A DNA stretch of 14,832 nucleotides from positions 1 through 14,832 of the forward strand of contig WFPG01000152.1 of the NCBI GenBank assembly GCA_015487755.1. The letters are read 5' to 3'. This DNA is from Acidobacteriota bacterium (lineage in GTDB: Bacteria; Acidobacteriota; Holophagae; Thermotomaculales; Thermotomaculaceae). Both the position numbers and the translations under genes were made by a program. Of the stretch, positions 2,807-14,556 are shown in pieces; within the stretch, counting starts at the first letter, position 1, and each line of letters starts with the position of its first letter. The notes under the pieces are model-generated. The model was given only the letters and a program-made list of their open reading frames with translations. It searched no databases and was not told the DNA's origin.

Positions 2807-2833
2807 ATTGAGATTATATATACAGGAGGATAT

Positions 2834-3838
2834 ATGAAAAAGGTTGTCGGGATTTTTATTATTAACCTTTTAGCGGTGCTTTTTCTTTTTGCAAAAGGGC
2901 CGCAGATAAAGTTTGAAAAAAAACTTATCGATGTAGGAAAAGTGCCGATTAATACAAAGGTTACAGGCGAGTTTAAGTTTAGGAATGTGGGGGATGAGAA
3001 GCTTGTAATTTATATGGTAAAACCCGGGTGAGGCTGCACAACATCCACTTTGGAGAAAGTGGAATATGAGCCTGGAGAGTCCGGAGTAATCAAGGCTTTT
3101 TACAATACGGGAAGTCATACCGGAAGTTTTGCAAAAAGAATAAGAGTAAAATCAAACTCTGTAAAAGATAGCGATATAAACCTTGTTTTAAGGGGAAGGG
3201 TTTATGCGGAACTTGAACTAAAAAACAATACCCTGTTTTTCTACGATTTAATTCCCGGTAAGACAAAAACATTTTCTGTACAGGTAACAAACAATATGGG
3301 GAAGCCCCTTGAAGTAAGAGGCTGGGAAATAACTTATCCTTTCAATGCTAATCTCTATTTTGACCTTAAAATTAAGGTTGTTAAAGGAAGCGAAAACCAG
3401 GAATTTTTGAAATTTTACCTAACGCCTAAAAAGGCGGTTTACCAGTTTAAAAACTCGTCGTTAACCGTTAAAGTTAAAACAAATTCAAAACAGGTTCCAG
3501 TACTTTCTTTCTATATGAGGGTCAAAATTAAAAAGGTTATAAACATAACACCGACTGCACTTTTTATGTACACTAAAGTTGATGGGAAAACAGCCCCAGC
3601 AACAATTGAAATTGATACCCAGCTTGATAGTGGTATTAAGATAAAGTCGGTAACATGTAATAATTGCCCTCTTACATTTGAAGTGGTAAATGTTTCTGAT
3701 AAAAGCAAACAGATATTAGTTAAGCCTGATTACCGTAAAGGTAAAAAAGGAAAGATTTTTTCTGGGATAATTAGAATACTTGTTGATGCAAACGGTGTGA
3801 AAGAGTTATCCATTCCCGTTAGAGGTAAATTATATTAA
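2834..3838 (+). CDS. Secreted DUF1573 protein with in-frame TGA at Sec66 (putative selenoprotein)
   Basis: Read through one TGA (3029-3031), this is a single frame of 334 aa. AGGAGG at 2824-2829 precedes ATG 2834. Residues 1-20 look like a signal peptide (MKK, then a hydrophobic stretch ending LFLFA). Residues 24-113 match the DUF1573 (ASH/Ig-like) pattern: an IDVGKV strand, FKFRNVGDEKL, the motif region, PGESGVIKAFYNTG, then GSFAKRIRVKSN. Family members carry C-G-C-T at the motif; here it reads U66-G67-C68-T69, so TGA replaces the first conserved cysteine. Two further Ig-like segments follow, the last with C275-NN-C278. A SECIS-like hairpin begins at the TGA. The downstream half has only a TTG (3050) as possible start, with no ribosome-binding site and in the middle of the domain. 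Function is unknown; a UxC/CxxC thiol-selenol redox role outside the cytoplasm is inference. Alternatives are a point-mutant pseudogene or a base-call error. Confidence 0.82.
3029..3073 (+). promoter_or_regulatory. Putative bacterial SECIS element with UGA Sec codon
   Basis: Starting at the A of the UGA, AGGCT (3031-3035) pairs with AGCCT (3069-3073). After an internal loop (3036-3043 and 3064-3068), TCCACTTT (3044-3051) pairs perfectly with AAAGTGGA (3056-3063) around the loop GGAG (3052-3055). Known bacterial SECIS elements lie immediately 3' of the UGA inside the coding sequence, have a short stem-loop with a G among the first two loop bases, and place that loop about 16-37 nt from the UGA; here the gap is 20 nt. 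The role would be to recruit SelB with Sec-tRNA. selA, selB, selC and selD are not in this window. Confidence 0.75.
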
Positions 3839-13834: not shown

Positions 13835-14212
13835 ATGAAGTATCTTGTTGTTTTTATCGGAGGCGGATTCGGTGCGATGATGAGGGACATTGTATCAAAG
13901 TTTGTTTACTCCCTTTTTTTTCCGACTTTTCCTTACGGAACTATGGCTGTAAACCTTCTTGGAAGCCTTCTTTTCGGTTTTTTGTGGCAGTTAACCGAGA
14001 GAATGATTGTTTCAAAAGAGATAAAAGCCCTTATTTTTACAGGCTTTTTAGGGGCGTTTACAACCTTTTCAACCTTTTCTTTTGAAACTGTCAATTTAAT
14101 TAGAGAAGGGGAAATAAAGTTTGCAATTTTAAATATTGTGGCAAGTGTTTTTCTGGGTTTAGTGTGTATTTTTTTAGGCATCTTTCTTGCTAAACAAATT
14201 GTAAGGGGTTAA
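13835..14212 (+). CDS. crcB: Fluoride-specific ion channel FluC (CrcB)
   Basis: A dual-topology inner-membrane channel that exports fluoride passively and protects against fluoride toxicity. The 125-aa protein has four hydrophobic segments. Family motifs are present: GGGFGAMMRD (R17), GTMAVNLLGSLLFG with the pore asparagine N40, and GFLGAFTTFSTFS at 70-82, whose F78 and F81 match the two pore phenylalanines and whose Thr/Ser stretch helps bind the central sodium. A single homodimer-forming gene is seen, not a tandem pair. AAAGGAGG (13816-13823) lies 11 nt before ATG, rather far, but no alternative start is open. No fluoride riboswitch is visible in the 17-nt gap or before the CYTH gene. It is followed almost directly by a DUF190 gene. 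Confidence 0.95.
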   Translation: MKYLVVFIGGGFGAMMRDIVSKFVYSLFFPTFPYGTMAVNLLGSLLFGFLWQLTERMIVSKEIKALIFTGFLGAFTTFSTFSFETVNLIREGEIKFAILNIVASVFLGLVCIFLGIFLAKQIVRG

Positions 14213-14214
14213 TT

Positions 14215-14556
14215 ATGTTGCCGGAACAGGGATTGCTTTTAAGGATTTTTGTCGGGGAAGACGATAGGTGTAAAAACGGAAGGCCTTTGTACGAAGAGAT
14301 AGTTATGAAGGCAAGGGAATTAAACCTTGCAGGGGCAACTGTTTTAAAGGGGGCAATGGGTTTCGGAAAAACAAGTAGAATCCACACTTCCAAATTTCTT
14401 GTTCTGTCTGAAGATTTGCCTGTGGTAATTGAAATTGTTGATACGGAGGAAAAGATAAATCAATTGCTTCCTTTTTTGGAAGAGGTTATCCAGGGGGGTA
14501 TGATTACCCTTGAAAAGGTGGCCATCCTTAAGTATAAGGGGGTACAAAGAGAGTAG
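14215..14556 (+). CDS. DUF190 family protein (FluC-associated, PII-like)
   Basis: A small cytoplasmic protein of 113 aa of the DUF190 family, predicted to have a PII-like fold. Typical features are the N-terminal LLRIFVGEDDR strand, YEEIVMKARELNLAGATVLKGAMGFG (residues 26-51), and LPVVIEIVDTEEKI followed by a GMITLEKV strand. DUF190 genes often sit beside crcB/fluC; here ATG 14215 begins 2 nt after the fluC stop, with GGGG (14204-14207) as ribosome-binding site inside the fluC end, indicating coupled translation. A regulatory or sensing role in fluoride handling is a guess from this association. Confidence 0.88.
   Translation: MLPEQGLLLRIFVGEDDRCKNGRPLYEEIVMKARELNLAGATVLKGAMGFGKTSRIHTSKFLVLSEDLPVVIEIVDTEEKINQLLPFLEEVIQGGMITLEKVAILKYKGVQRE

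Follow-up and report, generated by a model that had tools for sequence, protein, structure and literature searches.

Within the 14,832-nucleotide stretch of Acidobacteriota DNA analysed here (hereafter the window), two open stretches of the same frame, 2834-3028 and 3032-3838, are separated by a single TGA. This raises the question of whether the locus is a broken gene, or whether the TGA is read as an amino acid. The initial annotation proposed a single DUF1573 gene, with the TGA at the first Cys of the CGC motif of the family. When the TGA is read through, 2834-3838 gives a product of 334 residues (65 codons, the TGA and 268 codons), matched by PF07610 at residues 25-123 (82.4 bits for a cut-off of 26.1, E 2.4e-23). 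The match spans both sides of codon 66 and the TGA thus lies within the domain. In a profile search, this gene, with one internal TGA, was the sole PF07610 match in the contigs of the genome. The features of the locus are as follows.

2824..2829, + strand: AGGAGG ribosome-binding site, from the sequence, 4 bases 5' of ATG 2834
2834..3838, + strand: putative DUF1573 selenoprotein gene, 334 residues, TGA read as selenocysteine (Sec), TAA end
2834..2893, + strand: probable signal peptide, residues 1-20, assigned by eye; confidence of the structural model low over residues 1-20
2906..3202, + strand: DUF1573 (PF07610) domain, Ig-like, from the profile match and the model
3029..3031, + strand: TGA, probable Sec66, first residue of the U-G-C-T motif, from the sequence and homologues
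3035..3037, + strand: Cys68 of the motif, presumed partner of Sec66, invariant in the 19 Sec forms
3044..3063, + strand: SECIS-like hairpin, 8 bp stem, loop GGAG at 3052-3055, 20 nt after the TGA
3656..3667, + strand: C-N-N-C (Cys275, Cys278) in the third domain, from the printed sequences of relatives

Elsewhere in the window, a tRNA-Leu (CAG) gene is found at 642-728 on the minus strand, and at 13835-14556 two adjacent genes look, on inspection of the sequence, like crcB and a DUF190 protein gene. None of the riboswitch families attained its gathering score in the window.

The TGA could instead stand for another amino acid (Trp, for instance), a suppressor could read it, or each of the two pieces could be a protein in its own right. 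In support of such readings, the window has 13 complete genes, none of which uses TGA as a stop, all of them ending in TAA or TAG. Two separate proteins, however, fit poorly with the second piece, which begins within the domain and has no ribosome-binding site: AGGAGG precedes ATG 2834, and none of the in-frame starts 3' of the TGA (TTG 3050, GTG 3059, ATG 3296) was judged by eye to have a convincing one, as the initial annotation had noticed. Decoding as Trp or another residue is countered by the homologues, in which the site is Cys in 48 of the 48 stop-free sequences read and never Trp, and by the Sec-decoding genes and SECIS-like hairpin described below. Altogether, these readings are given very little probability.

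The homologues were collected by searching 61 genomes with the window protein and 396 genomes of the phylum with PF07610. Some match to the window protein was found in all 61 genomes, and a match with one TGA in eight of them. These eight are eight of the nine genomes of the window's own family (f1), five from one genus and three from a second; the ninth (G008) has a distant match only. The window gene is flanked by rnr (PF00773) and metK (the latter identified by eye), an arrangement found in both genera. PF07610 is present in 269 of the 396 genomes, at least 16 of which show one internal TGA and no other stop; the 16 listed comprise five of f1, seven of f28, three of f18 and one of f60, which places the TGA in at least 11 genomes of three other families. 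In total, 19 distinct TGA genes were read, eight from f1 and 11 from the other families; L018 and L023 represent one contig of G001 and were counted once. In all 19 the TGA occupies the same codon, the first residue of the motif, which is UGC in 17 genes and UAC in two (L085, L087). Stop-free homologues carry Cys-Gly-Cys at the site in 48 of 48 cases (22 + 7 + 19). Each interrupted homologue among the matches listed has one TGA; TAA and TAG were not seen. The alignment recommended in the initial annotation thus gave TGA at position 66 for close relatives and Cys for those further away. The random stops or frameshifts in close relatives that it had named as evidence against a selenoprotein did not appear, the only interruption being one TGA at the same codon.

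Purifying selection acts on both sides of the TGA. For three close pairs within the genus, dN/dS is 0.044-0.085 before the TGA and 0.045-0.086 after it, with high dS values (0.87-1.46 and 1.95-2.54). Less tidy ratios (before, after) were obtained for L083/L090 (0.13, 0.34), L081/L082 (0.20, 0.13) and L081/L084 (0.60, 0.33). The whole gene also accounts for the short relatives in public databases. Ten protein clusters (P0003-P0012) of 255-262 residues correspond to the post-TGA part of the gene. One of them, P0005, represents TTHT_1846 from Thermotomaculum hydrothermale, whose public entry does not have the pre-TGA part. That automated annotation starts these relatives after the TGA is the only point in favour of a pseudogene or a sequencing error, in which the TGA would be a true premature stop. 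Against this, the TGA recurs in eight different assemblies from the family, including one closed into a single contig; no other stops occur, dN/dS is low on both sides and the hairpin codons described below are frozen. Together, these points make a pseudogene or an error highly improbable, even more so than the other readings of the TGA. All these explanations were rejected on the points counted against each.

For a bacterial SECIS element, the published constraints are a loop of 3-9 nt, an upper stem of 4-16 bp, a G in the first two loop positions, a spacing of 16-37 nt and an MFE of -7.5 or lower (PMC13188914). The element of the window agrees with these values, having a GGAG loop, 8 bp, a spacing of 20 nt and -10.1 kcal/mol over 29 nt. 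Folding of the 62 nt from the TGA gives -18.5 kcal/mol (z -2.55), with 7 of 200 shuffles equally good. Over the 48 nt after the codon, mean z is -0.64 in Sec genes vs +0.58 in Cys genes (19 vs 29, p 0.003), a modest difference. The position of the loop was then compared within a test stretch of nt 13-41, counted from the U of UGA; this test was devised after the 48-nt folding output and was not blind. The loop begins at nt 24 or 25 (20 or 21 nt past the codon) in 19/19 Sec genes and at nt 24-25 in 7/48 Cys genes, mostly with weak stems. At that position an unbroken stem of at least 7 bp is found in 16/19 Sec genes vs 0/48 Cys genes (longest 5), and the remaining three Sec genes, from the sister genus, have an 8 bp stem with a bulge. 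Folds of -7.5 kcal/mol or lower occur in 16/19 Sec and 9/48 Cys genes; combined with a loop at nt 24-25, this leaves 16 Sec and two Cys genes (L034, L112). Stability exceeds that of 1000 synonymous recodings at p 0.05 in 12/19 Sec genes (11/19 in a repeat) and 0/48 Cys genes, the p values being uncorrected and the genes related to one another.

Stem sequences differ between groups of Sec genes; within a genus, the hairpin codons are frozen. Among five species of the window's genus, they are identical in 7/7 columns with a common amino acid vs 10/56 in the remainder of the compared stretch (p 3.5e-5), and in the sister genus in 7/8 vs 26/79 (p 0.004). The loops UUCG in f18 (L083, L088, L090) and CACCA in the f60 gene L086 do not have the G asked for by the published model. 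It should also be noted that two Cys genes, L112 and L113, which the unbroken-stem criterion hides, fold strongly (-10.9 and -18.7 kcal/mol), with 10 pairs each plus a mismatch and loops at nt 24 and 26; against synonymous recoding neither reaches p 0.05 (p 0.20 and 0.10). Both adjoin the f18 Sec genes on the tree described below, with weak support (80/50), and both come from genomes with a tRNA-Sec. Their hairpins are possibly relic SECIS elements, or chance products of GC-rich sequence. They weaken the statement that Cys genes have no hairpin, but not the frozen codons or the TGA at the same codon.

The machinery for Sec decoding was searched for in the genomes. In the genome of the window, a tRNA-Sec with anticodon UCA (76.3 bits, cut-off 47), SelB (354.4 bits, cut-off 242) and SelD (351.7 bits, cut-off 125) were found. 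The absence of selB and tRNA-Sec, held in the initial annotation to count against the proposal, is thus contradicted by two matches above cut-off. Of the four genes that it had suggested looking for, only selA was not found, in an assembly that is 89% complete (G000, 0 matches). SelA was likewise not found in G004 (97% complete); it was found in four of the nine genomes searched (G001, G002, G003 and G005), genus mates of the window's organism among them. The SelD gene of the window genome (L079:2942-3988, contig C239 of G000) has an in-frame TGA of its own, within an N-terminal AAG-U-AGKLG, and itself looks like a selenoprotein gene. More widely, tRNA-Sec was detected in 15/19 TGA-bearing genomes, 7/8 in f1 and 8/11 elsewhere; the search found none in G007, G223, G088 and G250. 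It was also detected in 4/52 other genomes and in 9/17 genomes that yielded the Cys form, which indicates that genomes with Sec decoding need not carry the Sec form. Second tRNA-Sec-like matches (about 54 bits) in G001, G003 and G004 proved to be tRNA-Ser genes and were discarded. G139 has two matches above cut-off (C5:7081-7170 and C87:318-412), perhaps a duplicate or contamination.

Thus, the TGA at one codon, the Cys in homologues, the SECIS-like hairpin and the presence of tRNA-Sec, SelB and SelD support the selenoprotein proposed initially. The sequence evidence indicates that the apparently broken gene is very probably intact and encodes an exported DUF1573 selenoprotein, the TGA being read as Sec. 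It can be proposed that SelB and a Sec-tRNA with anticodon UCA would read the UGA at 3029-3031 as Sec, directed by the hairpin at 3044-3063; such hairpin-directed insertion is strongly supported by comparison of the genes.

What could the Sec residue do in the protein? AlphaFold2, run on 44 sequences with Cys placed at residue 66, returned an all-beta model (mean pLDDT 91.4, pTM 0.73), in which the window protein is predicted to form a string of three Ig-like beta-sandwich domains. Residues 65-68 of the model form the loop joining strands 57-64 and 69-73 of the first domain, so that Sec66-Gly67-Cys68 would be displayed between two strands. This domain aligns with VesC and with a PapD-like domain of HYDIN at 2.2-2.5 A over about 100 residues. 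When the whole model is matched to ciliary proteins, the rmsd is large (about 7-14 A for the top-ranking matches), and the resemblance is confined to strings of such domains. No solved chain matched by sequence up to E 1, and neither thioredoxin-like nor copper-protein chains are among the structure matches listed.

From the motif and the gene neighbours of distant relatives, and given a selenoprotein, Sec66 and Cys68 probably form a thiol/selenol redox site. At the envelope, the pair would cycle between selenol/thiol and selenenylsulfide, exchanging with partner thiols or persulfides. A less probable alternative, though one with some claim to attention, is that the selenoprotein uses Sec66-Cys68 to bind a soft metal or to carry a persulfide rather than as a redox pair. 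With one residue between its members, U-x-C is also a plausible metal pair, and a published table has an entry for a Cu/Zn efflux transporter with UxC; rhodanese neighbours and fusions in relatives would fit persulfide handling. Against this alternative, no further conserved ligand was noticed near the motif, the window has no metal-handling neighbour, and the second C-x-x-C, that of the third domain, is kept in one genus only (5/5 members, vs 0/3 in the sister genus).

The neighbours in question come from one branch of f28, comprising five genomes (DUF1573-TGA loci L118:193-4250, L116:3793-6354, L081:361-2038, L115:6170-7444 and L117:7079-10468). A cytochrome c554-type gene lies just upstream on the same strand in 4/5 of them (G172, G139, G223, G305), and an exported rhodanese is encoded on the same strand in 4/5 (G172, G139, G223, G164). 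For both, the best NCBIfam matches are to '(seleno)protein' models and fall short of the cut-off. A nearby UGSC-family gene is also split by a TGA in G172 and G164, before S-S-C and G-S-C, and in G139 only a fragment of such a gene was seen; UGSC is catalogued as a selenoprotein family in a published table. By tblastn, no such neighbours were found in the other f28 TGA genomes (G230, G250), in f18 or in f60. Three DUF1573-rhodanese fusions (P0020, P0023, P0031) keep CGC, and their rhodanese domains, examined by eye, do not have the catalytic Cys; they lend weak functional support. By analogy only, the f28 neighbourhood supports an envelope thiol or persulfide redox function, and it gives a handle for testing the function of DUF1573. 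A more specific and quite speculative idea is that DUF1573-Sec proteins are non-thioredoxin redox carriers of the envelope, in which an Ig-like Sec-Gly-Cys would shuttle electrons between rhodanese persulfides (or thiols) and c-type cytochromes. This idea would take in the f28 module of rhodanese, cytochrome c554-type and TGA-split UGSC-family genes, as well as several Cys/Sec switches within the phylum.

These switches were studied on a tree of 67 DUF1573 domains in which the Sec/Cys residue was masked. The Sec label needs six changes on the tree, at least three of them under starred branches. A single origin of all Sec forms, as one clade, was rejected on this domain tree (AU p 9e-6). The tree has 119 columns and long branches, and does not fix how many exchanges took place or in which direction. 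Neighbours on the tree offer close natural Sec/Cys pairs: in f60, G394 has Sec and G181 has Cys together with a tRNA-Sec; in f28, G230 has Sec and G354 has Cys, no tRNA-Sec being found in the latter.

How does this gene relate to described selenoproteins? The initial annotation had hinted that none was known in the family. On the contrary, PMC9312934 and PMC13188914 each have a table entry for DUF1573 with UGC and cite the 2007 Olavius paper for it, and a table of PMC2398784 gives OS_HP2 as pfam07610 with UxC and the numbers 2, 2 and 354, taken here as Sec sequences and Cys homologues. OS_HP2, or DUF1573 selenoprotein (PF07610, NF041425), has the same domain and the same Sec position as the window protein. 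PF07610 matches the window protein above cut-off and the in-frame TGA gives U-G-C at the place of C-G-C; it is thus well supported that the gene belongs to the already known DUF1573/UGC selenoprotein family and is not a new kind. Among NCBIfam models, NF041425 gives the window protein its best match, and 19/19 Sec forms match it at E <= 1e-3. Because the score of the window protein (53.5 bits; 64.1 for its genus mate P0002) does not reach the curated cut-off of 100, the gene is placed in the published PF07610/UGC family rather than under the NF041425 model. Within the literature covered, a search returned nothing connecting Thermotomaculum with seleno- terms.

Compared with OS_HP2, the window protein has two extra Ig-like domains after DUF1573 and comes from another phylum than the Olavius deltaproteobacterium. 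It has the U-G-C motif in common with the UGC-containing TlpA/Prx-like selenoprotein, but the latter is tabled under the thioredoxin-like identifiers cd02966 and pfam00578, whereas the window protein is modelled as Ig-like. The fold common to the HYDIN/ASH/VesB-like Ig domains says nothing on function. A family that owes its name to a gutless-worm symbiont and ocean surveys now reaches at least four families of another phylum.
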